From NCBI RefSeq assembly GCF_036409155.1, contig NZ_JAZGLW010000008.1:62001-126000 (forward strand): 64,000 nucleotides of DNA, given 5' to 3'. The position numbers and the translations under genes are program-made. Shown in pieces: positions 38,664 to 54,337 of this stretch (positions within the stretch are counted from its first letter, which is position 1; every line of letters starts with the position of its first letter). The notes beneath the pieces were generated by a model. That model had not been told where the DNA came from and ran no database searches. It saw only the letters and a list, made by a program, of their open reading frames with translations. Origin of the DNA: Mycobacterium sp. 050128 (GTDB lineage: Bacteria; Actinomycetota; Actinomycetes; Mycobacteriales; Mycobacteriaceae).

Positions 38664-41600
38664 TTAGTCCGGGATTCCGATGTCTCGGGCGTCGTGCTCT
38701 GGGTGGTGGCCGCGGTCGCGCAGCCAGGTGGCCTCGAGGTGACGTTGGTAGGCCGCGCGGATTGTGTTGCGGAGTTGGTGTGCGTGGTTGAGGTGTTCGC
38801 GAAGCTGTTCGTCGAGCAGGGCTGGGTGCAGGCGCTGCGCCTGGATAAGTGCGGGGTCGAGGTCGGGCGCGCGTAGGCGGCCGAGGATGGCCGAGTCCGG
38901 GGGTGCGCCGATGGCGGTGGTCCACGGTAGTTCGGTGTCGAGGAGTTGCAGGAGCCGCTGGGCAGGCTTGGGGGGCCAGGTTGGGCTGGTGGTGTCGAGC
39001 AGGATGAGGCCGGACTGGGTAGCTGCGGCGTGTTCGGCGAGGTCAGCGATGACCGCGGGGTCTGCGCTGGCGGCGTCATCGACGATGAGGAGACTGCCGG
39101 GGGGTAGCTCGGGGTGCTGCTTGCCGGTGATGCCGGCATGGGCGTCGGTGATGGTGGCTGCGGTGTCGGCGAGCTCGTCGGCGACGGCGCCTTCGGCTTG
39201 GTCTCTGGTAGGGCTGCACCAGAGCACTCTGCGGTCAGCCGATGCCGCTGCGCTGCGCAGCGTGTGCAAAGCGGCGCGGCGTTCGGCGCCGGGCTGGGCA
39301 TGCACGACGGTGACCGCGAAGGGCAGCCTGGCGGTGTTGGTGATGGCGGCCGCGGCGGTGGGGGAGAGGTCGGTGACGGCGCTGGGGGCGATGTTGAGCG
39401 AGCGGTGGGGTTGGAAGCGGCTGGCGGCTTGCAGGACACGTAGCTCGGTAGCCAGGTGGTCGAGTTGGGCGGTGATGTGCTCGGCTGAACGGGTTTCGGC
39501 GGCCGCGAAGGCGGCGGCTGCCGCGAGTTCGGCGCGATCGAGGTCGCGGCGCAGCTGGGTGCAGCGACGTCGGGCCGCCAGGACGGCGCGATCGTCCTCC
39601 GAACGTACGGCGGCTAGGAGGTTGTCGACGTCGGCGCCGCTGATGACGCGCTCGGCGCCGCCTGCGGCTTGGGCACGCGCAGCGAGCGCTTCGCGCAGCG
39701 CAGCTTGGTAGCGTTCTGCGGGGGTGGTGTCGGGTAGGGCCATGAGGCGCAGCCGGACGTCGAATTTGGCCCACGCGAGGTCAAGCGGGTCGACATCGGG
39801 TTGCGACTGCAGCTTGGCGAGCTGGTCGCGGGCCCAGTCGACGTCGGCCTCTGCTGCCTCGTATTCGGCTTCAGCGTCGGCCCATTGGGCCGTGACGTCA
39901 TGCAGTGCGATCAGGTAGGGGCGGTCGGCGTCGGCGCGTTGGCGCAGTTCGCGGATGCGGGGGGTGGCTTGGCGCATGGCGGGTCCGTCGCCAATCTTGG
40001 CGCGGGCATGCAGCGCGTCGTGGTCGGCCAGCGCCTGCTGGTATTCGGTGCGTAGGACCGTCAGGTCGAGCAGAGCCGCCGGCAGGGCCGGGGCATCTCC
40101 GCGTTGACGGGGTAAGTCTTCGAAGTCCAGGCCACCGAGTTCCTCAGCGCTGTCGGGCGCGGTGTTGATGGGGTCGGGCTCAACAAGTTCGGGATGCCAC
40201 GGTTCGGTGGACAATTCGGTAGCGGGCATGTCGATCCTGGGGGAGTGCGGGTCGGGGGGAAGTTGCTCTTCTTCCTCGGGGTGCAGCGGGGGTTGTTCGG
40301 GCAGCGGGTGCTCGATGTGGTCGTGGTGGCCGCCGATGAGGTCGACGGTGTAGGTGATTGCTCGGGCGTATTGGTAAGCGGGGATGGTGTGGTCGGGGTC
40401 GACATCGGCGAGGTGTTCGGCGGCGACGTGGAGTAAGTCGGCGGGGGTCCAGCGGGTGGGGTCGGCGGCGTTGACCGCCGAGACGAGGCCGGGCCAGGCC
40501 GGATCGGCGATGACGGATTCAGCTGCTGCTGACCCGAACACGTTGTGCAGGTCGGCGATCCAGGTGGGGCGCAGACCGGTATGGGGGGTGTCGAGGGTGG
40601 CCGTGGAGGTGAGTTCGCCGGCAAGGCGCCACCACAGGGCGGCGGCGGGCAATTCGTCGGGCAGTGGGCGCTCGGTGGCGGCGGCGCGCACGAGGGCGGG
40701 CAGGTCGGGACGGCTGGCGGCGGCTTCGGCGAGGTGGGCGGCCAGTTGTGGCCAGTGCCCGTCGGCCCGGATGCGCGGGTCGATGGAGTCGATCAGCTGC
40801 TCATAGCGGCGGGTGTGCGGGTTTTGGGTGCGTACGACTGCTTGGGCATGGTTTTCGAGCAGTTTCTGGACGGCGCGGGCGCGCGCTGCGTACTGAGGCG
40901 GCCCGAGCAGGCTGGTGTCTTCGGCGGCCACGTGGTGCGCGGCGCGGAAGACCGCGATTTCGGCGGTGAGCTGAGGGTTAGCGGCCAGCACGGGTTTGGC
41001 CCAGGCCGGTGCGGTGGCCGGTGTCCAGTCTTGGGTGACGGATTGGCGGATCTGGTCGGCGAGCTCGGCGACGCGCTGGGCGCGCCCGCGCAGGCAGTTC
41101 CCCCAGTCCGGGTCCTCGGCGAGCGAGGTGGGGGTGGCGGGCAGCCAGCGCAGCGGGCCGATACCGGTGGAGTGGCCGCCGGTGGGGTCAATGCGCCAGT
41201 CGATCACCGCGGCTGGGTCGTGGGCGCTGAACAGTTCGCCCGCTGTCGCGGCCTCGGTCAGTGTGGTGGCGGGGTCGCGGCCGTCGGCAGCCACGAGGGC
41301 CAGGTGTTTGCACAGCACCGGCCATGCTTCTGCTCGGGTCAAACCGGGGTAGAGATGGTCGGCGGTGATGTGCAGTTGGGCCAGCAGGGCAGGCGAAGCA
41401 CGATGTTGTGCGGCTTCGCCCAAGGCGTCGTAGTACATGGCCGCGGCCGCGCCCAACCGCAGGAAGGGGTCGTGGGCCTCGCGGGCGGCGCTGGTGGCCG
41501 AGATTTGCGCTCCGTCGCGTGCCAATGTCTTTGTGAGGACGTCGACGGCTGTTTCGGGGTGCGTCGCCTTGGGTGACAGCACTCGGTGCGGGTCGGATTC

Positions 41601-44513
41601 TGCCGTGGACAAGTAGATGTGGTTTTCGATGCGCCCGCGAGTTAGTGCCACGTAGAGCAATTGGCGGGTGAGATGTCCCGCGCCGACGATGTGGCAAGCG
41701 TGTCCGGCGGTGAGTCCTTGTGCAGAGTCAATGGTGGCTGCATAGCCCAAGGTGACGTGTTTTTTGACGTAATGGGCGGGCAGGTGCACTGTTCGGCCAT
41801 TGCCTAGATGGCGGGCGGTAATGCTGCCGTTTTTGTGGGTTTCCAGGATTTGGAAGCGGTAGCCGTTGCGGACGTAATCGGTGCGGCTCATGCGTAGCCA
41901 GCGGGCGTTGCGGCGGGTGCGGATCAAATCGCCGGGCGAGGCGGCGAGCCGGTCTGAGAGGGTGATTTCGTGGCCGCGCAGGGTTGCGGGGACGGCAGAC
42001 GCGAGGCGATCGAGTCGGGCCCGGGCGTTGAGGGTGTCGACGATGTCGTTGGTGGGGGCGAGCAGAATCGAGTCTCGGCCTGCGTCGAGGTCGGCGGCCC
42101 ACGCGGTGTAGGCCATGTCGGCGGCGGTGTGGTCGGCGCCGACGTGTACACGGTGGTGGTCGATGTAGAACCCGAGTCCGGAGGGGTCGCCTTTGCGGAT
42201 CGCGAGGGTGGCGGCGCTTTCGGCGGTGGAGGCAAAGCGGACCAGCTGAGAGAGCGTCAGGGCGCCGGTTTCGTGGGCGATGTCGCGCAGCACGCCGCCG
42301 GCGGAGATGGACGCGAGTTGGCTGTCATCACCGACAAGGCGGATGCTGGCGCCACGGGCTAAGGCATGGGTGATCACCGCGTCGAGTTCGAGTGTTCCGG
42401 CTTTGCCGGCCTCGTCAATGATGATGAGAGTGTCGCGTCCGATTTTGTTGAACCACGGTGGTGGGGCCGAGCGACTTGTCGCCCTGGCCGTGTCGGTTGA
42501 CCACACGTATTTGGCGATGGTGTCGGTTGGTGCGGAGAGATCCTCGCCGAGTTCGATGGCAGCTGCCGCCGTTGGGGCCAACCCGATGATGGTCCCTCCC
42601 GAGGAGCGCCAGGCATGTGAGAGTGTGGCCATCGCGGTGGTCTTTCCGGTACCAGCCGGGGCAAGCGCCAAAGCCAGCCGGCGACCACTTCTGGCCATCT
42701 CTGCGACCAGCGCGACCTGGCCTTCGTTGAGTTGTTTGCCGCGTGCGGCCGACTCAGCCAGTGCCAGCTCGATGTCGATGTCTTCAACGGTGCGCCCGCT
42801 GAGCTGGCGGGCGGCTGCAAGGACGCGTCGCTCAGCGGCCAGCAGGTCCTCGCAGGTGTAAGTCGTGCTGCCGTGGCGGGTGTAGACGCTGGTTCCATCG
42901 CGGCGGCGCAGCTGCGCAGGCTCTCCCATTTCGCCGTCATCGACGTCGATGTGTTGGACCGACAGCGGCGCGACCAGCGCGGCGTCAGTGATCTTGGCGG
43001 CCAGGGAGCTGTCGGCAGCATGTCCGGTGCACCGGACCAGTCGCTGCGCCTCGGCTAAGACGTGGTGGCGTTGCCAGGTCGCCCGCGACTGGGCCACGGT
43101 AGCGATGACTTTCGCTGCGTGCGCGGCGATCCACTGGTCATCGACAGCTTCGAGCTGCGGGCTCGAGGCGGACAAGACCGTGCCCAGCATCGCGGTCAAT
43201 TCCCGCACACCGCCCAAGATCTCGATCGCCTGGCCGCGCCACGTCTGGCGCTGTTCAGCTAATGAGCGCGGCTCGTGTTTGGCTTCGCGGGTTTCCAGAG
43301 TCGCTTGTTGGGCAAGGGCGATGGTTTCCACGTGAGTCGGTTCGCGCCCGTGGCTGGCGTGGAATTGCTTGGCCAGCTCAGCGGTGCGAGCTTCAATCGC
43401 CAGCCGCCGCGAGGACCACGCGGCCATCAGCTCGGCAGACATCCCGACGATTTCACGCACCGGCCGCTTGCTGCGTCCCTCGGCAACAACGTCAGCGAAC
43501 TGCAGTTGGAGTCGCTGTCCGAGGTGGGCCTCCAGGCGCGTGTTGTACAGCTCGGAAGCCGCAACGGTGAACTGGTGCACAGGCTGCCCGTCAAGGGCCA
43601 GCCAGCGCAGCACGCCGTCAGCGCCGACGGTGGCGACCTTGTTGGAGATGGCCACATGAGTGTGAAGGTCTGGATCACCCGCGCGCGAGTCACGATGGGT
43701 GAACGCGGCTCCGATCAGCCCGGTGGTGTCGACCTGCGCGACGCCGTCAGCACCCGAGCGGGTGAACGCGGCGTGCGTTTCTAACCACGCCAGCGCATCG
43801 GCCACCGCCGCGTCATGGCATTCCTCGATGACTCTCGCGACGTCGAGCGGCGCGATCGCCCATAAGCTCGATACCGACTTCACGGGCGAAAATGTCAAGT
43901 CGTAGCCGGCGACTGCGGTGGTGCGGGCGCGGGTTTCTCGCGCGATGAAACCACTGAGTTCACGATCGTCGGAGGGCGCGCGGCCGTACTGTTCGGCGAA
44001 CATTCTGCGCGCGACAACGGTGCGGATCGCAGCGCGTGTGGGCGCGTCGATGGGCGCGTTCCAGTGCAGTCCGGCTTCTTCGTTGTGGTCGCGGTAAGCC
44101 ACGGCGAGGGCGCGTGTAAACGTGGTTTCGCCGTCGCGGATGTAGAACTTGCGGCCCAGTTTGGCGGCGTCGATCGCCGCGGTGCCGCGCGCTCCGCGTG
44201 CGGTTTCATTGGCTGTGATGGCGTCGGCGTTCGGGTGCAAACCCTCGCCGAACAACGCCTTCATTTGGGCCTCGGTGACCTGGGAACCTTCCGGAACGGC
44301 CCACAGCTCGGCCACATCACGTGCTGGTGCTCGGCGGGCACCGGCTGATTTCAGCGACGCCAGCCCTGAACCGATCCAGCGGCCCGGGGATTCGCCTTTC
44401 GATGAGTAGTAGTCGATCAGCGGCGCCCGCCCGCGGGCAGTGGAATCGACAGCCGCGACCTGCCGGATCAGGTATTGATACCCGTCTCCGGCCGTGAGCT
44501 TGTGCGTCGTCAT
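38664..44513 (-). CDS. MobF (TrwC/TraI-type) relaxase-helicase
   Basis: 1949 residues from the ATG at 44513 (a GTG two codons earlier is possible). The relaxase domain (about 1-330) has a Tyr pair in PLIDYYSSKG and the metal-binding histidines in FTHRDSRAGDPDLHTHV (about 270-286). A RecD-like helicase follows: Walker A APAGTGKTTA (about 616-625), Walker B TLIIIDEAGKAG (about 694) and GYAATIDSAQGLTAGHA near residue 920. The C-terminal 700 residues include an Ala/Arg-rich helical part and a second degenerate P-loop-like fold (SLLIVDDAASADP). MobF enzymes nick oriT, stay bound to the 5-prime end and unwind the transferred strand. Confidence 0.93.
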   Translation of the reverse strand: MTTHKLTAGDGYQYLIRQVAAVDSTARGRAPLIDYYSSKGESPGRWIGSGLASLKSAGARRAPARDVAELWAVPEGSQVTEAQMKALFGEGLHPNADAITANETARGARGTAAIDAAKLGRKFYIRDGETTFTRALAVAYRDHNEEAGLHWNAPIDAPTRAAIRTVVARRMFAEQYGRAPSDDRELSGFIARETRARTTAVAGYDLTFSPVKSVSSLWAIAPLDVARVIEECHDAAVADALAWLETHAAFTRSGADGVAQVDTTGLIGAAFTHRDSRAGDPDLHTHVAISNKVATVGADGVLRWLALDGQPVHQFTVAASELYNTRLEAHLGQRLQLQFADVVAEGRSKRPVREIVGMSAELMAAWSSRRLAIEARTAELAKQFHASHGREPTHVETIALAQQATLETREAKHEPRSLAEQRQTWRGQAIEILGGVRELTAMLGTVLSASSPQLEAVDDQWIAAHAAKVIATVAQSRATWQRHHVLAEAQRLVRCTGHAADSSLAAKITDAALVAPLSVQHIDVDDGEMGEPAQLRRRDGTSVYTRHGSTTYTCEDLLAAERRVLAAARQLSGRTVEDIDIELALAESAARGKQLNEGQVALVAEMARSGRRLALALAPAGTGKTTAMATLSHAWRSSGGTIIGLAPTAAAAIELGEDLSAPTDTIAKYVWSTDTARATSRSAPPPWFNKIGRDTLIIIDEAGKAGTLELDAVITHALARGASIRLVGDDSQLASISAGGVLRDIAHETGALTLSQLVRFASTAESAATLAIRKGDPSGLGFYIDHHRVHVGADHTAADMAYTAWAADLDAGRDSILLAPTNDIVDTLNARARLDRLASAVPATLRGHEITLSDRLAASPGDLIRTRRNARWLRMSRTDYVRNGYRFQILETHKNGSITARHLGNGRTVHLPAHYVKKHVTLGYAATIDSAQGLTAGHACHIVGAGHLTRQLLYVALTRGRIENHIYLSTAESDPHRVLSPKATHPETAVDVLTKTLARDGAQISATSAAREAHDPFLRLGAAAAMYYDALGEAAQHRASPALLAQLHITADHLYPGLTRAEAWPVLCKHLALVAADGRDPATTLTEAATAGELFSAHDPAAVIDWRIDPTGGHSTGIGPLRWLPATPTSLAEDPDWGNCLRGRAQRVAELADQIRQSVTQDWTPATAPAWAKPVLAANPQLTAEIAVFRAAHHVAAEDTSLLGPPQYAARARAVQKLLENHAQAVVRTQNPHTRRYEQLIDSIDPRIRADGHWPQLAAHLAEAAASRPDLPALVRAAATERPLPDELPAAALWWRLAGELTSTATLDTPHTGLRPTWIADLHNVFGSAAAESVIADPAWPGLVSAVNAADPTRWTPADLLHVAAEHLADVDPDHTIPAYQYARAITYTVDLIGGHHDHIEHPLPEQPPLHPEEEEQLPPDPHSPRIDMPATELSTEPWHPELVEPDPINTAPDSAEELGGLDFEDLPRQRGDAPALPAALLDLTVLRTEYQQALADHDALHARAKIGDGPAMRQATPRIRELRQRADADRPYLIALHDVTAQWADAEAEYEAAEADVDWARDQLAKLQSQPDVDPLDLAWAKFDVRLRLMALPDTTPAERYQAALREALAARAQAAGGAERVISGADVDNLLAAVRSEDDRAVLAARRRCTQLRRDLDRAELAAAAAFAAAETRSAEHITAQLDHLATELRVLQAASRFQPHRSLNIAPSAVTDLSPTAAAAITNTARLPFAVTVVHAQPGAERRAALHTLRSAAASADRRVLWCSPTRDQAEGAVADELADTAATITDAHAGITGKQHPELPPGSLLIVDDAASADPAVIADLAEHAAATQSGLILLDTTSPTWPPKPAQRLLQLLDTELPWTTAIGAPPDSAILGRLRAPDLDPALIQAQRLHPALLDEQLREHLNHAHQLRNTIRAAYQRHLEATWLRDRGHHPEHDARDIGIPD

Positions 44514-44795
44514 CGTCACTGCAGTGCCGTCCTTTCAGGCGCACGTTAGAGACCGCAGCGACGATCTGTCCTACACAGACAGGGCAGTTCTTAAGAAACC
44601 CTCAGCCTTAATGCAAGAGGTGTGTGGTGTCTGGGGTGGCTGAAACCGGTTGGTGTGGAGGGGCTTTTGGTGTGCGGGAAGAGGGTGGTGGTCGGATGAT
44701 GTTGGGGGGCACTGGTTTTTGGAGACGCAGGTGGTGGACAAATGTGGACATGGTGATGTTGGTGGTTTTGGTAGAGGGGGGCGGTGTGTTCGTCA
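44514..44795. other. candidate oriT region between relaxase and accessory gene
   Basis: About 280 bp without a gene. Close to the relaxase start there is a small hairpin (CTGTC, 7-nt loop, GACAG) and TTAAG/CTTAA arms. From about 44628 to 44795 the plus strand becomes strongly rich in G and T. At 44650-44670 the sequence TTGGTGTGG and, 3 nt later, GGCTTTTGG resembles the nic region of F-type MobF plasmids as I remember it. oriT normally lies beside relaxase and accessory genes. Confidence 0.45.
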
Positions 44796-44801
44796 TATGG
44801 T
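44796..44801 (+). promoter_or_regulatory. -10 element TATGGT for the relaxosome accessory gene
   Basis: TATGGT is followed by exactly 6 nt (gcggcg) and the ATG at 44808; no ribosome binding site. Predicts a leaderless mRNA. Confidence 0.4.
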
Positions 44802-44807
44802 GCGGCG

Positions 44808-45272
44808 ATGGTGAATATCAACTCGAAATCGGCGGCACGCAAGCGGGTTCGTGAGGCGCAGCTTCGAGCGAACGAGGCGCGGGTAGAGCGGGAGCGTCAA
44901 AACGTCGACGACGCCGCATCGGTTCTCGTCGAACTTGGCCGACTGGCGGCCGTGGAGGAGTGGGAGGCAACCCGCATCCTCGAGGTGCGAGCCGAGGGGG
45001 AGCGGCGGCGCTACGAGCACCGCCAGGCCGCCGCTGCGGCAGTGGCTCGGATGCAGGGCCGCGGTGAAACGCTGGCGGCGATCGCCGCGTTGACCGGAGT
45101 CAAGACCAGCGACGTTCGCGCGGTGCTGAAGGCGGCGAGCGCGCGAACCGGGGCGGCGCCAGAAGCACTAGGCGCGGCCAACGGGGCGGCGCCAGAAGCA
45201 CTAGGCGCGGCCAACGGGGCGGCGCCAGAAGCACTAGGCGCGGCCAACGGGGCGGCGCCAGAGCGGGGGTGA
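44808..45272 (+). CDS. relaxosome accessory-like DNA-binding protein with C-terminal 11-residue repeats
   Basis: 154 residues from the ATG at 44808. The first 70 residues are a highly charged helix (ARKRVREAQLRANEARVERE), followed by a helix-turn-helix-like part (RGETLAAIAALTGVKTSDVR, about 84-103) and then GAAPEALGAAN repeated three times plus a partial copy. It is divergent from the relaxase gene across the candidate oriT, the place where MobF plasmids carry a small oriT-binding helper (TrwA in R388). The helper role is inference from position and charge. Confidence 0.6.
   Translation: MVNINSKSAARKRVREAQLRANEARVERERQNVDDAASVLVELGRLAAVEEWEATRILEVRAEGERRRYEHRQAAAAAVARMQGRGETLAAIAALTGVKTSDVRAVLKAASARTGAAPEALGAANGAAPEALGAANGAAPEALGAANGAAPERG
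45150..45259 (+). repeat. 33-bp tandem repeat, three full copies and a partial one
   Basis: Unit starts GGGGCGGCGCCAGAAGCACT; copies at 45150-45182, 45183-45215 and 45216-45248 are identical, then 11 bases of a fourth. It encodes GAAPEALGAAN within the accessory protein. Perfect identity suggests recent slippage. Confidence 0.9.
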
Positions 45273-45319
45273 TATGCGAATGACGCTGCGGCACAGAAGG
45301 ACATGTCGGTCGCTTGGCT

Positions 45320-45325
45320 TAACGT
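45320..45325 (+). promoter_or_regulatory. -10 element TAACGT for the HNH-like gene
   Basis: TAACGT is followed by 6 nt (agtcgc) and the GTG at 45332; no Shine-Dalgarno sequence is present. Confidence 0.4.
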
Positions 45326-45331
45326 AGTCGC

Positions 45332-45844
45332 GTGCGTGTTGAGCCAGGAGTACCGCTGCGGGTCGATCCGGTGGTGCACGCTGACGAATGCCGTCGCTTC
45401 GACTCATACGTCGTGCGAGGCCCTGACGCGAGCGACTGTGATTTTTTCACGGGCGCGATTGGTGCGGACGGCTACGGGCGGTTCTTCATCTACCGCGAGG
45501 GACGGGGGATTTGTGTGCGGCCGCACCGGTATGCGTTGGCGCGTCGGCTTGGGGTGGTGCTTCAGCCACACGAGTTGGGTTTGCACGAGTGCGATAGTCC
45601 GCTGTGCGTGAAAGTCTGTGTCCCCGAGGCGTCGTGCCAGCATGTGGTGGTGGGTACTCAGGCCGAGAATATGCGGCGTATGGCCCGGATGCGGCGTGGA
45701 GGTGGCCGGAGGGCGATTCCCAGTGATGGGTTATGGGCTCGGCGAGAGCGCTCGGTGGCATTGCGCACGGTGCTGCGGGAGCGAGGCTGGGATCGGGCGG
45801 CGGTGGAGGCGGCTCGGCTCGGTGGTATGCCGACGTTGTGGTGA
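45332..45844 (+). CDS. HNH-endonuclease-like protein
   Basis: 170 residues. The middle resembles phage HNH nucleases of the type with an N-terminal strand pair: GYGRFFIYREGRGICVRPHR, then LHECDSPLCVKVCVPEASC (candidate zinc-binding Cys) and HVVVGTQAENMRRM, which in that family follows the last zinc ligand. The first His of the active site (in LGLHECDSPLC) and the final HVVVGT are present, and the Asn step is at EN. Activity is therefore possible but not certain. Such genes are common mobile passengers. GTG start supported by the -10 at 45320. Confidence 0.6.
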   Translation: MRVEPGVPLRVDPVVHADECRRFDSYVVRGPDASDCDFFTGAIGADGYGRFFIYREGRGICVRPHRYALARRLGVVLQPHELGLHECDSPLCVKVCVPEASCQHVVVGTQAENMRRMARMRRGGGRRAIPSDGLWARRERSVALRTVLRERGWDRAAVEAARLGGMPTLW

Positions 45845-45866
45845 GGGTGCGGGCACTGCTGGCGGT

Positions 45867-46454
45867 CTAGCCGGCCAGCGCTATCGGTCGTGCTGTTCGC
45901 GCATAGGAGGCGGGATTGCGATCCAGCCGGTAGACGGCAGTGTGCATGGCCCAGTAGACGGCGACGATGTAGGCGCCGGGGATGACGCTCGCCAGGTCGG
46001 GCCGACACGTCGGCCGGTTCGCGTCGTGTGCGACGGCGATGGCCAAGAGCGCGGTGTTGGCCTCGTCTACGGTGTGAAAGCGCAGTCCCGTTGGTCGTTC
46101 CCGTGTTCCATTCGCCCAGATCTTCAATTCGCGGATTTCCAGGCAGGGTGCGCCATTCGGCGTGCTGATGGCTGACGAGCAGTTGTGGTGCCGGCCGATG
46201 TGGGCGTGGCCCAACGCTTGTGAACGAACTCCAGCCGTGAGCGTCGCGGCGCACAGGAGCTGCGGGTGCACCGGATAGGGTTTGTACTGCGGTCCCCACG
46301 CATCGATCCATTCAACGGTGACGTTCTGCACGTCGATCGCGACGATGAAGCCGTAAGTGGTCTTGCACGTGTAGGTGGCGCACGTGCGGCTCATTGCGAC
46401 GGGATCGGCGGCGGTGACGAGTTGGCCGATGTGGAATCCGTTGGCGCTGTTCAT
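45867..46454 (-). CDS. hypothetical protein, third gene of the nrdH operon
   Basis: 195 residues from the ATG at 46454, which overlaps the previous stop by 4 nt (ATGA). The first part looks like a small beta barrel (GFHIGQLVTAADPVAMSRT, YGFIVAIDVQNVTVEWIDAW), followed by a loop with His and Cys (GHAHIGRHHNCSS) and a C-terminal helix. No family recognised. Coupled to the gene at 46451-46819. Confidence 0.55.
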   Translation of the reverse strand: MNSANGFHIGQLVTAADPVAMSRTCATYTCKTTYGFIVAIDVQNVTVEWIDAWGPQYKPYPVHPQLLCAATLTAGVRSQALGHAHIGRHHNCSSAISTPNGAPCLEIRELKIWANGTRERPTGLRFHTVDEANTALLAIAVAHDANRPTCRPDLASVIPGAYIVAVYWAMHTAVYRLDRNPASYARTARPIALAG

Positions 46455-46819
46455 TGTCGTTGCCTGACGAGTTGGTGATCGATGGCGCCGGTGATGCGGT
46501 CCCATGCTGTCAAGATCGCGGGGCGCTCGTCGTTGGATGCCAGGGCGAGCGATTCCTCGAGCGCTGCTTTTGCGGCCGAGAATTGCCGCTCGGTGATCGG
46601 GTCAGCCAGGCGTCGCTCGATGGTAGCGACCGCGATCGTCCGGCCATCGCACGGGTCGACGAGTTCGTAGCTGGCAAAGGGTTCGGTGAGTTGGATGGCG
46701 CGGCGCGTGCAATCCAACTGGCCGTGGTAGGAGTCCAGGGCGGCGGTGGCGTCGCGTCGATCCGGGTGCACGCTCAGTGACAGTGCGCCGCGCTGGTGCT
46801 CGATGGTGAGGTCGTACAT
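46451..46819 (-). CDS. hypothetical protein, second gene of the nrdH operon
   Basis: 122 residues from the ATG at 46819 (GAGGACC upstream). Short strands at the N-terminus (MYDLTIEHQRGALSLSV), one Cys pair region (LDCTRRAIQ, DPCDGRTIAV) and two C-terminal helices. It lies 17 bp after nrdH. No family recognised; a role with the redoxin is not supported by any motif. Confidence 0.55.
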   Translation of the reverse strand: MYDLTIEHQRGALSLSVHPDRRDATAALDSYHGQLDCTRRAIQLTEPFASYELVDPCDGRTIAVATIERRLADPITERQFSAAKAALEESLALASNDERPAILTAWDRITGAIDHQLVRQRQ

Positions 46820-46836
46820 GGTTGGTCCTCGTGCTC

Positions 46837-47076
46837 TCACACGGCGGCGGCCAGGGAAGCCAGGCCCCGGAGACGGTCGGGCCGGAAGCCGCTCCAGTGT
46901 TCGGATCCGGCGACGATGACTGGCGCCTGCAGGTACCCCAGGCTCATCACGTAGTCGCGGGCCTCGGGGTTTTCGGTGATGTCCACGATGTCGTACTTCA
47001 GCCCGTTTTTGTCCAGCAATTTGCGAGTCGCGGTGCATTGAACACAGGCCGGTTTGGTGTAGAGAATGATATTCAT
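46837..47076 (-). CDS. nrdH: NrdH-type glutaredoxin-like redoxin
   Basis: 79 residues, the usual size. The active site is CVQC (residues 11-14, in YTKPACVQCTATRKLL), the cis-Pro region is LQAPVIV and the end HWSGFRPDRLRGL matches NrdH proteins, which accept electrons from thioredoxin reductase and reduce class Ib ribonucleotide reductase. A strong ribosome binding site (AGGAG, 7 nt) precedes the ATG. No ribonucleotide reductase genes are nearby, so it must serve the host enzyme or another partner. Phages and plasmids often carry it alone. Confidence 0.92.
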   Translation of the reverse strand: MNIILYTKPACVQCTATRKLLDKNGLKYDIVDITENPEARDYVMSLGYLQAPVIVAGSEHWSGFRPDRLRGLASLAAAV

Positions 47077-47115
47077 GGGGATCTCCTAAATGGTGCCGGA
47101 ATGGCGGTGCCGTTA

Positions 47116-47129
47116 GTTACTATTGTAAC
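47116..47129 (-). promoter_or_regulatory. promoter and operator-like palindrome of nrdH
   Basis: GTTAC-TATT-GTAAC is a perfect 5-bp inverted repeat. On the minus strand it contains TACAAT, a very good -10 element, about 45 nt before the nrdH start. Overlap of -10 and palindrome suggests repression. Confidence 0.45.
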
Positions 47130-47279
47130 GCTTAATGCGTTGCTAGACAACCGATATGGGACTTTCTATCGAATGGATTCTGTCTCATTTCTGTCGCATC
47201 TCTTCGACTTATCGCATTTATGTCAGTCGCCGATTTATCTGGATTTAGTCACCTCCTATTCGATGCGATCTTTTGACGC
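47130..47279. other. AT-rich non-coding stretch upstream of nrdH
   Basis: About 150 bp, clearly richer in A and T than the surroundings, without a credible gene. It separates the nrdH promoter from the terminator of the methyltransferase gene. Confidence 0.5.
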
Positions 47280-47321
47280 GGGCCTGGCATCAGCCGAACT
47301 TTGTGTGCTGATGCCAAGCCC
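47280..47321 (-). terminator. terminator hairpin after the methyltransferase gene
   Basis: The arms 47280-47294 (GGGCCTGGCATCAGC) and 47307-47321 (GCTGATGCCAAGCCC) pair in 14 of 15 positions around a 12-nt loop. It lies 11 bp after the methyltransferase stop on the minus strand. Confidence 0.7.
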
Positions 47322-47332
47322 TGAATTCCTCT

Positions 47333-49177
47333 TTACTGGGCGCCGGCGAGTAGGCGGACGACGAAGCCGCCAAGCCACTGGGCAACGTTGCTCGACACTG
47401 CGTTGCCGAATCCCATCGTCTGTTCGGAGCGGTTCCCGGTGACGCGGTAGTCGTCGGGGAAACGTTGGGCACGGGCGTGCTCACGCGGGTTGAGCATTCT
47501 GAAGCGGCAGTCGCCGATCTCGATCGAGGAGGCTTCGACTAGGGCCGCAGAGTCCCGCGTGGCAACAGCGTGCAGGGGCTCTTCGGTGGTCTTGGCCTTA
47601 CCTTTGCGGTAGGGGATCACCAGGGAAAGGTTGGGACGCGCGACGACTGAGGCCATGGGATCGTTGACGCTCTTGGTCATGTGGGCGATCCCCTGATAAT
47701 CCAGGCCGCCGTGGTGCTTCTGGATGAAGGCGCCGGGCGGGACGGTGAGCCCTTGGTGGCCCCCACCGGTTCCGCCGCCCGTGGCCACGGCGGCTAGCGG
47801 GTCACCGATCGGGCTCACGTCGGCGTGGTTGCGTAACACGGTGATCCATGGCTGCGGAGTGAACAGGCCATCGGTCTCGCGAGTCATGCGGGTCCGAACG
47901 GGGTCGGCGGCGGTCGTCGGGTCGGTATTCCAAGAGCCTCCGGCGGGGACAACCATGGGCGGGGTCACCAGGGTGTGGGGGCGGCCGTTGGCGGTGATGG
48001 CTCCGACGGGATCGCTGATCGGTTTGACGCGGCGGGAGTCTCCGTCGTGGTAGGCGCGCCGGTCGAGCAGGAACGGGGGGCAGGCCACGCCGTCGCCGAT
48101 TTTGGTGGATCGGGTTGGCATCGGGGCGCCGGCGGCGGGGTAGGCCCGCCCTTCGCCGAGGCGGCCGTGGTTGGTGGGGATCACGGTGGGTTCGGCGAAC
48201 TGGGCGATTCCGGCACGGATGCGGCGCATGGTCGCAGCGGCCAGTGGCTTGGTCCGGTCGCCAATGCGCTGGCCCAGGTCGCTCCAGTCAATGGCCACCG
48301 CAGCGGGCCGGACGAAGGGTTCCACGACGCTGTGCCTGCACCTGGCGTTGGGGCACCGGTAGACGTATTGCTGGCGGTATTTTCCGATGCGGCGGCGGTC
48401 CAGGCGCTTCCAGGACTGCACGGAGTGGTTGATCTCATCGCATTCCGAGCACCAGGCCAGCGGGCGGGGCCGGATGTCGATCATCGGCAACGACACTTGT
48501 GTGAACACGATGTAAAGGCGGTCACGCCACTGGGGGGCATGGGGGTTGGTCTCGTCGCCGATATGTGCGGAGGACACGGAGATGAACTGATGGTTGTAGC
48601 CCATCTTGTCCATTGCGGCCAGCCAGACGTCGAACAGCTCCCAGGATGCGGCCTCGACGACGTTCTCGATCAGGATGATCTTGTAACGGTGAACTTCAGT
48701 GGCGCGCACGACATCCCAGAACGTGGCTCGGGTCCGGTCTAGCGCCGCTGTGGGGACGTGGCCTTCGGGCTCAAGTAAAGACAGCTGCGGGCTGCGGCGA
48801 CGGGTGCCGCCAGCGGGGGAGAGCTCGGTGCAGATCGGCGATGCCCACAGCACATCGGTGTGCGGCAGCCGTCGCATGTCGTAGTTGGACACGTCGGCGA
48901 TCAGGTGATCAGCGTTCGGGAAGTTCAACGCGTGGGTCTCGATGGCTTTCGACCAGTGGTTGGCTCCCAAAACCAAGGTCATTCCAGCGTTTTCCAGGCC
49001 AATGCTAGAGCCACCGAATCCACAGAAAATGTCGGTGTAGGTGATCCCAGTGGCCAGGCCGCTGGGTTGCCAGTCGCTATGCGCCGCGGCCAAGGCTGCA
49101 TCAATTTCACTGAGGTGCTCAGCCGACAGCTCTGGTGCGTGCAGCTTCGCCGCTCGTGCAGTGGACGAGGTGGCCAT
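47333..49177 (-). CDS. DNA (cytosine-5) methyltransferase
   Basis: 614 residues from an ATG with AGGAG 6 nt upstream. Motif I is TDIFCGFGGSSIGLENAGM (about 48-66), the catalytic Cys lies in WASPICTELSP (about 108-118), motif VI is ILIENVVEAA (about 163), and the C-terminal block has RFPDDYRVTGNRSEQTMGFG, which holds motif IX-X. The SPxC form instead of PCQ is typical of phage-type enzymes. The target-recognition region includes a Cys-rich loop (WCSECDEINH, CPNARCRH) that could bind zinc. No restriction nuclease is recognisable beside it. It is divergent from the PP-loop gene across a large inverted repeat. Confidence 0.9.
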   Translation of the reverse strand: MATSSTARAAKLHAPELSAEHLSEIDAALAAAHSDWQPSGLATGITYTDIFCGFGGSSIGLENAGMTLVLGANHWSKAIETHALNFPNADHLIADVSNYDMRRLPHTDVLWASPICTELSPAGGTRRRSPQLSLLEPEGHVPTAALDRTRATFWDVVRATEVHRYKIILIENVVEAASWELFDVWLAAMDKMGYNHQFISVSSAHIGDETNPHAPQWRDRLYIVFTQVSLPMIDIRPRPLAWCSECDEINHSVQSWKRLDRRRIGKYRQQYVYRCPNARCRHSVVEPFVRPAAVAIDWSDLGQRIGDRTKPLAAATMRRIRAGIAQFAEPTVIPTNHGRLGEGRAYPAAGAPMPTRSTKIGDGVACPPFLLDRRAYHDGDSRRVKPISDPVGAITANGRPHTLVTPPMVVPAGGSWNTDPTTAADPVRTRMTRETDGLFTPQPWITVLRNHADVSPIGDPLAAVATGGGTGGGHQGLTVPPGAFIQKHHGGLDYQGIAHMTKSVNDPMASVVARPNLSLVIPYRKGKAKTTEEPLHAVATRDSAALVEASSIEIGDCRFRMLNPREHARAQRFPDDYRVTGNRSEQTMGFGNAVSSNVAQWLGGFVVRLLAGAQ

Positions 49178-49195
49178 GAGAACTCCTTATCTGGT

Positions 49196-49237
49196 GGTTG
49201 CCTATAGCCTACCATTTGCGGTAGCCTATAGGCAACC
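49196..49237. promoter_or_regulatory. 18-bp inverted repeat operator between methyltransferase and PP-loop genes
   Basis: Left arm 49196-49213 (GGTTGCCTATAGCCTACC), 6-nt spacer, right arm 49220-49237 (GGTAGCCTATAGGCAACC), 17 of 18 pairs. Each arm contains a palindrome of its own (GCCTATAGGC). It sits 18 bp from the methyltransferase start and 19 bp from the PP-loop start, so it overlaps both promoters. A near copy precedes the regulator gene at 50604. Confidence 0.8.
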
Positions 49238-49256
49238 GCTCGAACGGGGGAATACG

Positions 49257-50447
49257 TTGCGCACAACCGCCACAAACGATTTGACGCTGCCTGGCATCGC
49301 ACCTTCACACGCCGCGCCATCGGTTGTTCTCAGCTATGGAATGGGACTGGACTCCACCTGCCTGCTGTTGCGTTGGCTAGAGGAGCCCTCCTCGCGAGAC
49401 TTTGAGCTGACCGATCTGGTCTTGGTCACTGCCTTCACTGGTGATGAGTTCGACTCGACTCGCCGGGTGGTGGAGCGCCATGTGCTGCCGCGCCTGCGTA
49501 CGCATGGGGTCCGGTTCGTTCAGTGCGCCCGCTCCCGGCGACTGACCACAACTCGCGGGGACGGGGTCATCGTTTTGGACGACTCAACCGCACCGCAGCG
49601 CTTGCACTTCCGCGGCCGGTACCGCCTCAGTGATGAAATGCTGTCCCAGGGGACCATCCCCCAACTAGGTGGGTTTCGTTCGTGCTCAGTGCATTCCAAA
49701 GCTAATGCCCTCGAACCGGTGATCGCCGCACTCACGCAAGCACAGCCCTACCGGCACGCGATCGGATTTGAGGCTGGCGAGCGGGCCCGGGCACGCAAGG
49801 ATTCGCTGTACAACAACGCGCGCCGAACTGGCTGGTATCCCCTGGTGGAATGGGGCTTCGATCGGGCCAAGGCCCAGGAGTACGTCACCGCGGTCACCGG
49901 CGAACCGTTTCCGAAATCAGCGTGCAGCTATTGCTGCTTCGCGATGGCCACGGAGACGGGCCGGGCCCACCAGGTCGAGCGCTACCGCGATGAGCCGCAG
50001 GCGGGCGCGCAGGCGCTGCTGCTGGAAACAGTGGCGCGCTCGCTCAACCCGCGCCAAACCCTGATCGCCGGCAGCAGCGCCACCGACCTCATCATTGGCG
50101 CCGGATTGACCGCGGTGCTCGCGGAGTTCGAAATACTCCTGGAGAATGCAACATTCGCGGTATACGAGGTGCGGCGGGTCAAAACCCACGGCGGTAAGGC
50201 GAAGCGAGCGATGACCGCGCGCTCGGTGAGCGCGATCGCGCGCGGCACCCGCATGGCGATGGACCAGCACCTGGGTAGCCTTCCGGGCCACCGCGAGATC
50301 GGCGCGGACGGAATCGCACGGCACTACCTAGAGAGCGCCGAGCGGTGCGAGCACCTGTTCGTCGTCGCGCCGGCCCTCGTTGAGGACAAACAGCGTCCCC
50401 AGTTCGAACGGATGTGGCAGGAGGCCCACAGTGAAAAGCTCTTCTGA
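49257..50447 (+). CDS. PP-loop ATPase, PAPS-reductase-like
   Basis: 396 residues from the TTG at 49257, the first start after the operator, with GGGGG 6 nt before it. The PP-loop is LSYGMGLDSTCLLLRW (S-x-G-x-x-D-S/T type, about 22-37). LVTAFTGDEFDSTRR follows where related enzymes bind substrate, and SACSYCCFAM (about 219-228) has clustered Cys, as in enzymes that handle sulfur or an Fe-S cluster. Relatives include PAPS reductases and DndC of DNA phosphorothioation. No dndB/D/E partners are present. Divergence from a methyltransferase under one operator suggests a nucleic-acid-modification role; this is inference. Confidence 0.7.
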   Translation: MRTTATNDLTLPGIAPSHAAPSVVLSYGMGLDSTCLLLRWLEEPSSRDFELTDLVLVTAFTGDEFDSTRRVVERHVLPRLRTHGVRFVQCARSRRLTTTRGDGVIVLDDSTAPQRLHFRGRYRLSDEMLSQGTIPQLGGFRSCSVHSKANALEPVIAALTQAQPYRHAIGFEAGERARARKDSLYNNARRTGWYPLVEWGFDRAKAQEYVTAVTGEPFPKSACSYCCFAMATETGRAHQVERYRDEPQAGAQALLLETVARSLNPRQTLIAGSSATDLIIGAGLTAVLAEFEILLENATFAVYEVRRVKTHGGKAKRAMTARSVSAIARGTRMAMDQHLGSLPGHREIGADGIARHYLESAERCEHLFVVAPALVEDKQRPQFERMWQEAHSEKLF

Positions 50448-50569
50448 TCGATGCCCACCCGCGTCTGCGCGTGCTCTCGCGGACCGATTGGTGGCCCTTC
50501 ATCACCGGCCCCTCCGGAACGTCGAGGCGTTCAGGCTGCGCAGGTGATGGCTCTCTGCGCCAGCCGGCC

Positions 50570-50587
50570 TGTAGGCTATGGCCCACC
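50570..50587 (+). promoter_or_regulatory. operator copy upstream of the C-protein-like gene
   Basis: TGTAGGCTATGGCCCACC matches the reverse complement of the left operator arm at 49196 (GGTAGGCTATAGGCAACC) in 14 of 18 positions. It ends 16 nt before the GTG at 50604, where an autoregulator would bind. Confidence 0.6.
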
Positions 50588-50603
50588 ACGAGAGGGACGA
50601 CAA

Positions 50604-50837
50604 GTGGCCGAAATTGATGAGGACAAGGTGCTGGCGACTGTCGGTGCCCATATTCTCCAGCGGCGCACCGAACTGGGTTTGAGTCAGCGCGACCTTGCCG
50701 CCGCCGCTGGAGTCGACCGTGCGTTCCTCGCCCGGGTAGAGCAAGGCCTGCGCAATCCCTCGGTCGTCGTGTTGGCGAAAGTTGCCCACGCAATGCACAC
50801 CACCGTGGGTGCGCTGACGCGCGACATCGTCACCTGA
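50604..50837 (+). CDS. small XRE regulator resembling restriction-modification controller (C) proteins
   Basis: 77 residues from the GTG at 50604, with AGAGGGA 6 nt upstream. Almost the whole protein is one XRE domain: VGAHILQRRTELGLSQRDLA, then GVDRAFLARVEQGLRNPSVV and KVAHAMHTTVGAL. Size and lack of any other domain are those of C proteins, which control restriction-modification genes through tandem palindromic boxes. Operator-like sequences before this gene and between the methyltransferase and PP-loop genes agree. Binding is predicted, not shown. Confidence 0.8.
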   Translation: MAEIDEDKVLATVGAHILQRRTELGLSQRDLAAAAGVDRAFLARVEQGLRNPSVVVLAKVAHAMHTTVGALTRDIVT

Positions 50838-50919
50838 TTCTCACGTCGTATGCGACGACTTAGCGCTTGGATCAGCTGTTAGGCAGGCGAACTCGGGCAG
50901 ACTCGGCCCGACCGCCGTA

Positions 50920-52407
50920 CTACTGCCGCCAGGGGTGGGAGTCGAGCATGGTGGTCACCGCAGTAATGAGTGCGGGATCTGTTCGTGATTCTTGGGCCAA
51001 TTGCTGCACCGCAGCCCCGATCCGGGCGAGGAGGCTGCCATATGCTCGAGTGGCGGCAGTGATATAGGTGTGTGCGGCGTGCGCGTGCCGAGCATCGCTA
51101 TAACGCGTCGCCACGTCCTGTAGCTGCTCAGATAGGCTGGCGGCGTCGCGCTGCACCTGTGCGGCCAGGGTGCTCACCGCGTCTTTGTCGCCATGGTGCC
51201 CGTGGTCGACCAGCGCGATCTCCAGCGCATAGTCAAGATCACGCGCTCCTGCCAAGGCGTCCTCAATCGGGCCGGTGTGCGCTCGTAGTTCGGCGGCGGG
51301 GACAGGAAGGCTCAATAGTTGCGAGCTGGCGGGATCGACGACGTGGGCGCGCTCGGCGTCGGCACGGGCCTCCTCGGCGTCGCTGCGGGCCTGCTCGGCT
51401 TCGGCTCGTGCCTCTGCGGCTTGCGTTTGGGCCGTTCGCATGGCCTCGATGGCTTGCTCGGTCTGCTCGTGCGCGGCGGCCAGTTGTGCGGCGGTTTCGG
51501 CCCGCACCTGGGCTATCTCCTCGTGTGTGCGGGTGAGTGCGTCGTCGATTTCGGTCCTGGCCCGGGACTCGGCGGCCGCAACCCTGCCATCCGCGCGGCC
51601 TTGGGCCGCCGAGAGCTCCGCTGTGCACTGAGCGCGAACTTGTTCTAGTTCACCGCGTAGTTCTTCGAGGGCTTGTTCAGCGGTAGCGCGCTCTGCGGCG
51701 CGCTCGTTCAATCGTTGCTCGGCGCGCTCATCGGCGGCGCGGGCCTGCGCTTGCGCGGCGACCGCGTCGGCGGTTGCGTCGGCTCGTACGCGTTCTAAGT
51801 CGGCGCGCAGGTCTTCGAAGGCGAGCTGGGCGGTTCGTCGTTCCTCGAGGCGCTCCGCCGCGCGTTCTTCGGCGCGCTCGTTGGCGGCGCGTACCTGTTC
51901 GTGGGCGGCGGCTACTTCGGTAGCGGTGTCGGCTTTGACTCGTTCCAACTCGGATTGCAAGGCCTCGATTTCTTGTTGGGAGCTGCGAAGTTCGGCGGCG
52001 TGTTCGGCAGCCTGGAGCGCGGCGTTGGTTTTTGCTGCTCGGGCCCGCTCGCGCGCGTCGTCTGCGGCGCGCGCCGATTGGTCGGCTTCGGTACGGGCCA
52101 TCTGAGCGGCCGCTTGAGCGTCACGTTTATCTTGGTCGGCCTCGCGCGCTTGCTGTTCGGCGACCGCGCGGCGATGATCCGCCTCGACGAGTTGCATCAC
52201 TGGAGAGAGCTGTCGGGGTGCCGATCCCGCGCGGTTGCGGTGCTCAACGAGCTCACGCTCGGACATGGCGGCCACCGCGACCAATTCCGGCGGCGCGGGT
52301 TGACCGCACCGTTGGGCGGCCTCGACCGCGGCCGTCGCTGCCTGTCGGGTCAGCGTTGCCCAGGTTTCGACATCGAGGTTCTCGATGTTTTGCCGCAAGG
52401 TCGTCAC
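50920..52407 (-). CDS. long coiled-coil protein (KfrA-like plan)
   Basis: 495 residues. Residues 1-75 form a compact helical head (DVETWATLTRQAATAAVEAA), then about 300 residues of nearly continuous coiled coil rich in Ala, Glu and Arg, including repeated segments such as AHEQVRAANERAEERAAERL and AAQAQARAADERAEQRLNER. The last 130 residues are helical and less charged. A DNA-binding head with a long coiled-coil tail is the plan of plasmid KfrA proteins, but the head is not clearly a helix-turn-helix. The ATG overlaps the upstream membrane-protein stop by 4 nt, so the two likely act together. Confidence 0.65.
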   Translation of the reverse strand: MTTLRQNIENLDVETWATLTRQAATAAVEAAQRCGQPAPPELVAVAAMSERELVEHRNRAGSAPRQLSPVMQLVEADHRRAVAEQQAREADQDKRDAQAAAQMARTEADQSARAADDARERARAAKTNAALQAAEHAAELRSSQQEIEALQSELERVKADTATEVAAAHEQVRAANERAEERAAERLEERRTAQLAFEDLRADLERVRADATADAVAAQAQARAADERAEQRLNERAAERATAEQALEELRGELEQVRAQCTAELSAAQGRADGRVAAAESRARTEIDDALTRTHEEIAQVRAETAAQLAAAHEQTEQAIEAMRTAQTQAAEARAEAEQARSDAEEARADAERAHVVDPASSQLLSLPVPAAELRAHTGPIEDALAGARDLDYALEIALVDHGHHGDKDAVSTLAAQVQRDAASLSEQLQDVATRYSDARHAHAAHTYITAATRAYGSLLARIGAAVQQLAQESRTDPALITAVTTMLDSHPWRQ

Positions 52408-53039
52408 TGGCGTCGTCGCCTGCCGGTCACCGCGACCTTGTTCGCCGGGCCTGGGGCGTCCTCAGTGTTCGTCGTGGGCGCGGATTGCACCGCCTGCGCT
52501 TCCGGCACCGGCTGTTCATGGTGGTCAGCTGCCGGGGCCGGGTCGGGGGCCGCAATGGGTGTGGGAAGTTCGTTGGTTTGCTGAGACAGAACCAACGAGA
52601 ATTCATTCAGATACACCCTTACGGCGTCCCTGAGGGTCCGGTCGTCGAGGTCCTCAGCGTCGCGGAGCAATCCCCGCAGAAGCTCTAGGGCCAATTGGGG
52701 TCCTAATCCCACGGTGGCTGTCTGGCTGGCCGGTTCGATCCCGGCGGTCTCAACAACCCACACCAGGCGCTCCCAGCATCGCTGGACGGCCGCCGTGCGT
52801 TGCTGCTCGTTGCGTACTTGCTGAGAGTGACTCTCCTGCTGCTCAAGTTCGAGGCGGTGGCGCTTGCTTGCTCGCATCAGAGCAATGAGCGCGACGCCAG
52901 CCAGGACGAGAGCGGCCACGAAGGCCGCGGCTCCTCCAAATCCCGCTGAGGTGACAAATTCGCGCGCCGGCGGTAACGCTGGCATGCGTCGAGGCACCAA
53001 GAACATCGAATCTACTGGCGGAGGCGCAGCCATCGACAT
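52404..53039 (-). CDS. one-pass membrane protein paired with the coiled-coil protein
   Basis: 211 residues. One transmembrane helix (about 33-56, GGAAAFVAALVLAGVALIAL) is followed by a charged helix (SKRHRLELEQQESHSQQ), a helical domain and a Pro-rich tail. No family is recognised. Being the first gene of the pair with the coiled-coil protein, it may anchor that protein at the membrane. The 160-bp gap upstream is shared with the divergent gene at 53200. Confidence 0.6.
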   Translation of the reverse strand: MSMAAPPPVDSMFLVPRRMPALPPAREFVTSAGFGGAAAFVAALVLAGVALIALMRASKRHRLELEQQESHSQQVRNEQQRTAAVQRCWERLVWVVETAGIEPASQTATVGLGPQLALELLRGLLRDAEDLDDRTLRDAVRVYLNEFSLVLSQQTNELPTPIAAPDPAPAADHHEQPVPEAQAVQSAPTTNTEDAPGPANKVAVTGRRRRQ

Positions 53040-53186
53040 GAAAGAACCATACTCGCCACGACAGCCAAGGCCTTTGAGTAATGGGCTGTGGAACGGTCGT
53101 GGCGGTTAACAGGGTCGGCTTCCGCTCCGACAAATCACAGCCGGCGGGGTGGTTAACGGTGGTGGCCAACATGATGGTGGGTGGGC

Positions 53187-53192
53187 GATACT
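53187..53192 (+). promoter_or_regulatory. -10 element GATACT for the ESX-substrate-like gene at 53200
   Basis: GATACT, then 7 nt, then ATG. With an 18-bp spacer TGGCCA (53163-53168) matches TTGACA in 4 of 6. The paralogue at 54345 has the same element at the same distance. Confidence 0.55.
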
Positions 53193-53199
53193 GGCGGCT

Positions 53200-54201
53200 A
53201 TGTCGTCGATCGATGCGCTGGTGGCCGAAACGGGCCGCGCTTTGAGTGCTGCGCGCAGGCTGTTTGGCTCCGCTCCCGTCGAAGGGTCATTGCCCTCGGC
53301 GCATCGGTTGACGACGGGTCGGCAGGCGGTGGCCCAGGTTGGGCGGGCCGCAGCGGTCAGCTGGCAGGGCAGGGCGGCAGGGGCGTACGTGATGGCCAAC
53401 TCCGAGCGGGTGCAGGCTTTCGATGCAGCCGTGGCGGGTGATAGTCGAGTCAGTCCGGCTCTGGCCCGTGGGGGCCAGAGCGCGGCGGCCGGCGCGCAGT
53501 ACATGGACACACTGATCGCCCAGACCCGCGCAGGCGTTTCCGCGCTCGCCCCGAGCACGCGCAGCGCGGCGGGACAACACCAACTGGCCACCTACCTGCA
53601 AGGTCAGCTCAATCAGGCCAAGGGATTGCTGCAGAATTATCAGCAACAAGACGGTGAGATTGCCGGGGTCATCAAGGGTGCCGATTACACCAAGGGAAGC
53701 GGTCAAGCCAAGGACTCACCACCTGCGACCCCGCTGGACAAGAAGTGGAAGCCTGGCGATAAGCGCCACATGCCGTACTACGCCGGCAAGGGCGGGATCG
53801 GTCCGCCCAACGTTGAAGGTTCACCACCGTGGGTAGACGTGTACGACAGAACCAAGGATCCAGACCAGGTTCCGCACTACTTCGTCCGCTCGGATGAAAT
53901 TCCCGACTACAGGCTGCTTGCGCCAGGAAGCCTTGGACCCGCGACGGTCTACGACTCCCACGGCAACCCCGACCAATTCGTTGAGCTGGTGCCCAACTCG
54001 GGCGTGTGGGTACCGCAGTCGGACTTTCCTGGCGCGAGAATTTATCCGCCGCGCTCGACTGGCATCTTGCCGCCCTATGGTTGGGAGGAGTACCTGCCGG
54101 GGTCGATGATCTATGTATGGCACGGCGACTTCATTCCGGAACCGTGGAATTCGTACGGTCCTTTCGGGCCGCCGCCGGTCACCCCGCAGGGCGGCCACTG
54201 A
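53200..54201 (+). CDS. ESX-substrate-like protein (DUF4226-like N-terminus), copy 1
   Basis: 333 residues from the ATG at 53200. Residues 1-165 are helical (SSIDALVAETGRALSAARRL, YMDTLIAQTRAGVSAL, QLATYLQGQLNQAKGLL); residues 180-333 are rich in Pro, Gly and Trp with PYYAGKGGIGPPNVEGSPPW and a Pro-rich end. The helical half matches copy 2 at 54345 almost throughout (ASLDELVAAAGRALSDARRL, RMDNLIAETRMGVATF). Mycobacterial proteins with such an N-terminal domain (DUF4226, name from memory) are encoded near ESX genes and include secreted proteins. No signal peptide. The function is unknown; export through the plasmid ESX system is a reasonable guess. Confidence 0.6.
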   Translation: MSSIDALVAETGRALSAARRLFGSAPVEGSLPSAHRLTTGRQAVAQVGRAAAVSWQGRAAGAYVMANSERVQAFDAAVAGDSRVSPALARGGQSAAAGAQYMDTLIAQTRAGVSALAPSTRSAAGQHQLATYLQGQLNQAKGLLQNYQQQDGEIAGVIKGADYTKGSGQAKDSPPATPLDKKWKPGDKRHMPYYAGKGGIGPPNVEGSPPWVDVYDRTKDPDQVPHYFVRSDEIPDYRLLAPGSLGPATVYDSHGNPDQFVELVPNSGVWVPQSDFPGARIYPPRSTGILPPYGWEEYLPGSMIYVWHGDFIPEPWNSYGPFGPPPVTPQGGH

Positions 54202-54280
54202 CCGCAACATGGATCGGGCGGATCAGTTGAGGTGTGGCCGCTGCCTTCCCCAGCCGTTAGACGCGTGTTCAGCAAACTGT

Positions 54281-54294
54281 CTTGGCGAGCCAAG
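54281..54294. promoter_or_regulatory. perfect palindrome between the two paralogues
   Basis: CTTGGC-GA-GCCAAG, 51 bp before the ATG at 54345. It is either an operator for copy 2 or a short terminator hairpin for copy 1. Confidence 0.35.
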
Positions 54295-54331
54295 TTAGTG
54301 GTGGTGATAGCGGCTTAGCCGAGGTATGGCT

Positions 54332-54337
54332 GATACT
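54332..54337 (+). promoter_or_regulatory. -10 element GATACT for the ESX-substrate-like gene at 54345
   Basis: GATACT, then 7 nt, then ATG, the same spacing as for the paralogue at 53200. No ribosome binding site. Confidence 0.55.

Follow-up and report, generated by a model that had tools for sequence, protein, structure and literature searches.

A candidate XRE-controlled regulon with orphan C5-methyltransferase and PP-loop enzyme genes on conjugative mycobacterial plasmids

The window analysed here, a 64,000-nucleotide stretch of Mycobacterium sp. 050128, lies within contig NZ_JAZGLW010000008.1, which is 133,626 bp long. This contig carries genes for a MobF/TrwC relaxase, for type VII secretion and for a coupling protein, a content by which it is judged to be a conjugative mycobacterial plasmid. 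The relaxase-side gene group comprises an NrdH-type glutaredoxin, an orphan C5-cytosine methyltransferase (MTase), a PP-loop-fold protein and a small XRE/Cro-type regulator (Table 1). The MTase and PP-loop genes diverge from an 18-bp inverted repeat (17/18 paired), and a third, similar site precedes the XRE gene, both located as in a preliminary description made from the sequence alone. That XRE controls both the MTase and the PP-loop genes is well supported by sequence comparison across related plasmids.

Table 1. Features of the module and its surroundings (positions in the window).
Feature	Position	Strand	Basis or remark
Orphan C5-cytosine methyltransferase (MTase), 614 aa	ATG 49177 to 47333	-	PF00145 E=1.5e-29; phrog_116 2.5e-56
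Operator arm 1, GGTTGCCTATAGCCTACC	49196..49213	.	With arm 2, the only zero-mismatch pattern matches in the genome
Putative -10 hexamer TAGGCT, MTase promoter, within arm 1	49206..49211	-	Candidate promoter element
Operator arm 2, GGTAGCCTATAGGCAACC, 24 bp from arm 1	49220..49237	.	Pair conserved in 24/65 loci
Putative -10 hexamer TAGCCT, PP-loop promoter, within arm 2	49222..49227	+	Candidate promoter element
PP-loop-fold protein, 396 aa	TTG 49257-50447	+	Start backed by 396-aa homologues
Third operator-like site before XRE, contains TAGGCT 50572-50577	50570..50587	+	Corresponding site before XRE in relatives
XRE/Cro-type regulator, 77 aa, candidate autorepressor	GTG 50604-50837	+	HTH_3 PF01381 E=1.4e-12; helix/operator covariation
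MobF (TrwC-type) relaxase-helicase	38664..44519	-	PF08751 9.4e-81; equivalent place in L001, L002, L007
Candidate oriT/nic-region 17-mer, TGCAAGAGGTGTGTGGT, between mobF and module, upstream of mobF	44612..44628	+	Putative role
NrdH-type glutaredoxin, neighbour	46837..47076	-	PF00462 2.3e-17

The MTase translation contains the catalytic motifs FCGFGGSS, SPICTE, IENV, QWRDR and GNAV, and the MTase of a M. lentiflavum plasmid (L007) is 90.1% identical to it. The longest open reading frame (ORF) of the PP-loop gene begins at GTG 49041 and its start was corrected to TTG 49257, while that of the XRE gene begins at ATG 50451 and relatives back the GTG 50604 start.

The PP-loop protein carries the strings SYGMGLDS and SACSYCCFAM, its PP-loop domain spanning approximately residues 19-245 and being followed by a second domain (residues ~250-396) without a clear fold match. 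The structural model places it among PP-loop ATP-pyrophosphatases, with an adenine-nucleotide alpha-hydrolase fold and an SxGxDS-like loop, and its closest solved folds include phosphoadenosine phosphosulfate (PAPS) reductase (7rge, the best match), GMP synthetases and the tRNA thiolases NcsA and TtuA. A phage protein named PAPS reductase is a further structural match (E=1.6e-7), and the phage 'PAPS reductase' family phrog_424 is matched at E=2.7e-6. The motif of PAPS reductases is ECGLH. Unlike those enzymes, the window protein has an extra C-terminal domain, the ECG string looked for in it is absent, and at E 0.1 it matched no Pfam family (PF01507 PAPS reductase included), no NCBIfam family, hence no DndC profile, and no PADLOC model.

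Cys143, Cys223 and Cys226 are invariant in a 65-row alignment of PP-loop proteins and probably hold an iron-sulfur (Fe-S) cluster. Three cysteines are described as holding the [4Fe-4S] cluster of DndC (PMC10853773), with which the window protein shares the PP-loop fold and three conserved cysteines; unlike in Dnd phosphorothioation, no desulfurase-family match lies on the contig and no DndD was found in the genome at E 0.001 (DndB and DndE were not searched for). A PAPS-reductase-like gene of a M. abscessus prophage has also been noted as DndC-like (PMC8092301). The PP-loop family comprised 267 proteins at E <=0.001 among 7995 candidates scored, with 140 plasmid records; among the matches listed, most are named 'hypothetical protein' and a few UniRef names read phosphoadenosine phosphosulf(ate). 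One relative, P0117 (397 aa), joins a PP-loop N-terminal part to a DUF6349-type C-terminal part on a 1.6-kb contig, and is either a real fusion or an assembly chimera. On a Streptomyces plasmid (L005), a PP-loop relative is preceded by the gene of a single-stranded DNA-binding protein; a ParB-N gene lies upstream, and downstream is a gene annotated as PAPS reductase.

Each 16-bp arm of the inverted repeat is itself a near-dyad (6/8 and 7/8 pairs), so that the divergent region would hold two operators. The third site matches one arm at 14/18 and the other at 13/18 positions and, as reported earlier, lies 16 nt before its gene when this starts at GTG 50604; it also contains TAnnnT, the actinobacterial -10 pattern. 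A protein bound to these sites would cover the -10 box and start point, an arrangement that suggests a repressor which also limits its own expression, not an activating C protein. The operator pattern GTWGNCTATAGNCWAC, a consensus made from the window and the first relatives, occurs in the 6.7-Mb genome with zero mismatches only at the two arms and with two mismatches at 11 other places including the XRE site; within the window, four places at <=2 mismatches compare with 0.2 expected. At two mismatches the pattern says little by itself, since a reversed control has 59 places, and the XRE site alone is weak, as 10 other genome places equal it; its weight comes from relatives, in which conservation was examined for this reason.

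Conservation was scored in 65 loci with a PP-loop match (the window, 13 annotated plasmid loci and 51 genome-contig loci) as the total mismatches of the best-matching two sites lying 20-28 bp from each other around the beginning of the PP-loop gene. A pair of 16-bp dyads with 0-4 mismatches in total was present in 24 loci, the other 41 scoring 11-14, while 1300 shuffled control windows never fell below 8 and 390 more ranged from 9 to 14 (median 12.5). By this sequence comparison the operator pair is more than chance. The arms are spaced 23 or 24 bp apart in 23 of these loci and 21 bp in one, and the named operator loci (n=23) all belong to Mycobacterium, Mycolicibacterium or Mycobacteroides.

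In a tblastn survey with XRE queries, from which counts were made by hand and Fisher-tested, an XRE relative was found nearby in 23/24 operator loci versus 4/41 others (L008, L014, L024, L032). It lies just downstream on the same strand in 17 of the 23, and further down on the opposite strand in six; the remaining operator locus, L061, is without XRE. In 25/25 loci (the 23 with operator and XRE plus the added L007 and L110), the outermost base pair of the 18-bp dyad tracks the XRE recognition helix: where the dyad reads GGTA...CC, one helix position is A or R (10/10), and where it reads TGTA...CA, that position is N, H or S (15/15), a result that does not amount to 25 independent tests because the classes and position were picked post hoc and the loci are related. 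Four loci have mixed arms, one arm having the other first base in L026 and L031 and a different last base in L019 and L042. Together, these observations bear out the earlier proposal of one XRE regulator acting, presumably, on common operators. In Gordonia, an XRE relative follows a DUF6349 gene behind a different dyad sequence, which in L109 consists of two 12-nt arms spaced 23 bp and of which L108 has only a 7-nt exact core.

The genes behind the operators were listed for 26 operator-match loci (the 24 minus L061, plus L007, L107 and L110), taking starts 4-90 nt from a match of <=2 mismatches and choosing ORFs by GC content at third codon positions (GC3); some small antisense ORFs in the list are noise. 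These genes include C5-MTases in ten loci (window, L007, L017, L027, L028, L029, L031, L042, L107, L110), MTase remnants in two (L011, L030), ParB-N proteins in five (L001, L002, L010, L023, L046), where they occupy the divergent MTase position, and a second PP-loop protein in seven (L018, L019, L020, L021, L022, L025, L026), which reaches PF01507 in 4/4 tested (L018, L020, L022, L026) and which in L020, L021 and L026 diverges from the first across a common operator pair, at the MTase position. NrdH (L110) and DUF6349 (L009, a divergent neighbour) were found once each, relatives of L007:8112-8648 in six loci (L007, L011, L017, L029, L030, L107) and another uncharacterized family in four (L001, L002, L023, L046); two tested members of the L007:8112-8648 family reach phrog_12222, and 31 mycobacteriophage records contain relatives of this family. 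Identity to the window's MTase is just 29% for the MTases of L027 and L029 and 37% for that of L110, so that different MTases seem to stand under the same control. In the window a single operator pair is common to the MTase and PP-loop genes; in six PP-loop loci (L017, L027, L028, L029, L031, L042) a separate pair stands before each of them. No locus in the tblastn survey had both an MTase and a ParB-N match.

Across 248 genomes of the genus, the PP-loop gene was present in 29, the MTase family in 35 and both in 17, against about four expected (Fisher p=1.1e-9; cut-off E <=1e-20, pieces included), an association inflated by both being plasmid genes. In 11 of the 17 genomes the two share a contig; they diverge from each other in 10 of the 11, at distances between 89 bp and 67 kb. 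The suspicion that the PP-loop protein might be a known metabolic PAPS reductase not associated with methyltransferases met with a mixed outcome: the protein does not match the PF01507 PAPS-reductase profile, and it does co-occur with MTases. In Nonomuraea (L045, L047), large contigs carry a PP-loop relative and, downstream of it in the same direction, a C5-MTase (~31% identical to that of L009); this operator is absent there.

We lean, with modest confidence, towards an autoregulated establishment regulon of conjugative plasmids, comparable to that of ArdK in R388, a MOBF plasmid, and including an orphan MTase and a PP-loop enzyme. An XRE dimer would bind the 16-18-bp dyads (an adjacent pair in the divergent region, a single one ahead of the XRE gene), which would overlie the -10 box and transcription start of each promoter, and would repress all three genes. 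On entry into a plasmid-free recipient, which has no repressor, the promoters would fire in a burst and then be shut off, yielding the C5-methyltransferase, which would mark incoming DNA, and the PAPS-reductase/DndC-like enzyme, which would activate its substrate with ATP and, using its three cysteines and host-supplied sulfur, alter a nucleic acid or small molecule; jointly they could let the plasmid evade host restriction. Of the earlier interpretation, anti-restriction on entry is what seems worth keeping. It is doubtful, though conceivable, that the product of the PP-loop enzyme is a new DNA modification, probably containing sulfur and placed either alone or atop 5-methylcytosine, which would be made only in the minutes following conjugative entry and would block host restriction as a transient self-mark.

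In R388, ArdK is reported to repress ardC, ssb and its own promoter, with a transcription overshoot after mating (PMC3937220), and for RP4 an induction table gives a fold change of 223.7 for klcA (PMC7314908). The ArdK/KorA/KorB-type networks of these plasmids, in which a repressor acts on its own gene and on maintenance and anti-restriction genes and overshoot follows transfer, resemble the present case, where putative regulator sites lie at the regulator's own promoter and several other plasmid promoters. Unlike in those networks, the cargo here consists of MTase, PP-loop and ParB-N proteins, the burst is conjectural, and the likeness is one of organization, not of sequence comparison. A literature search found no description of this regulon, and it is the regulon and its cargo that are new. 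That one regulator unites ParB-N proteins, two kinds of PP-loop enzyme and MTases only distantly related to each other points to a single purpose for these chemistries, and the operators offer a handle for finding further members and switching them on; if the PP-loop enzyme does modify DNA, known epigenetic systems would gain a mark that is transient and confined to entry.

Several observations weigh against this explanation. The operator is missing from 41/65 PP-loop loci, some of them mycobacterial (for some of these the reason is a PP-loop match that is fragmentary or begins within the gene), which makes the PP-loop family independent of it, and the MTase is absent from the ParB type and the PP-loop gene from the 13.9 kb read around the MTase and XRE genes of L007; they are therefore not an obligate pair. 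At <=2 mismatches, fewer genome places match GTWGNCTATAGNCWAC (13) than match its reversed control (59), and the outward-pointing TAnnnT found in both arms of 15/15 distinct operator pairs was partly built into the search pattern, which favours finding it. The covariation may partly mirror two related clades. The genome's nine desulfurase-family matches all lie off the window's contig, DndD was not found, and both the oriT and the direction of transfer are conjectural.

Among the alternatives, a tentative but appreciable one gives the PP-loop enzyme tRNA or a small molecule as its substrate, in thiolation or sulfur assimilation with NrdH as reductant, co-control with the MTase then reflecting a common early-expression slot only. 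The closest folds, PAPS reductase and tRNA thiolases among them, are compatible with this, as is the same kind of operator before NrdH in L110, whereas three PF01507 PAPS-reductase-family proteins are encoded in the genome, all on another contig, and in four loci from outside the mycobacteria (L044, L045, L047, L060) the PP-loop gene has C5-MTase relatives in its vicinity. Rather unlikely is a role in defence, in which low steady expression would mark plasmid and host (5-methylcytosine, possibly sulfur) and hinder rival plasmids or phages, the ParB-type proteins being occasional nucleases. PP-loop/PAPS-reductase and ParB-superfamily proteins are described in Dnd and BREX defence (PMC10853773, PMC12839542), and ParB-N alternates with the MTase at the same place; against this, a promoter covered by an operator in the established cell argues for transient use, and PADLOC matched neither the PP-loop protein nor the ten neighbouring ORFs chosen for scanning (44784-56710; E 0.01). 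As the preliminary description had noted, no nuclease was visible, these ORFs and the PP-loop protein having no nuclease match in PADLOC or Pfam, a scan that a nuclease unlike the models, or a more distant one, would escape.

It is very unlikely that the dyads belong to the core promoter or serve some other regulator: they do contain TAnnnT -10-like hexamers, but the conserved GGCAAC half beyond the -10, the near-constant spacing, the distribution of XRE and the helix covariation speak against it. The wiring first proposed, that of a restriction-modification-like system in which a C protein sets the timing and the PP-loop protein is the effector in the nuclease's place, is hardly credible. The MTase and the small XRE gene, with its common dyad operators and its match to PADLOC control-protein models (2.2e-9, as many XRE proteins would give), are reminiscent of type II systems, but the scan gave no nuclease, the sites cover -10-like boxes at three promoters in a repression-like geometry, the MTase is replaceable by ParB-N (5 loci) or a second PP-loop protein (3), L007 has MTase and XRE but no PP-loop gene in the stretch read, and ParB-type plasmids suggest that MTase loss with the PP-loop gene kept is harmless to the host. 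On these grounds the PP-loop protein is not a substitute for a nuclease.

Beyond the module, no operator was seen before the window's NrdH gene, the NrdH operator of L110 being that of a M. chelonae plasmid. The 17-mer TGCAAGAGGTGTGTGGT recurs exactly and in one orientation in eight loci (window, L001, L002, L007, L010, L023, L042, L046) and is aligned upstream of mobF in four. If it is oriT and transfer runs toward the module, the module would enter first. The window's operator arms (49196-49237) resemble what we take to be the nic-region pattern of the R388 relaxase, with 1 and 2 mismatches in 12 bases. Orphan MTases are reported to be enriched in plasmid leading regions (PMC11541004), and the window MTase, with no nuclease in the ORFs scanned and lying near the relaxase and putative oriT, resembles them. 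Short tandem repeats at 45140-45270 mark the end of a small ORF beside mobF.

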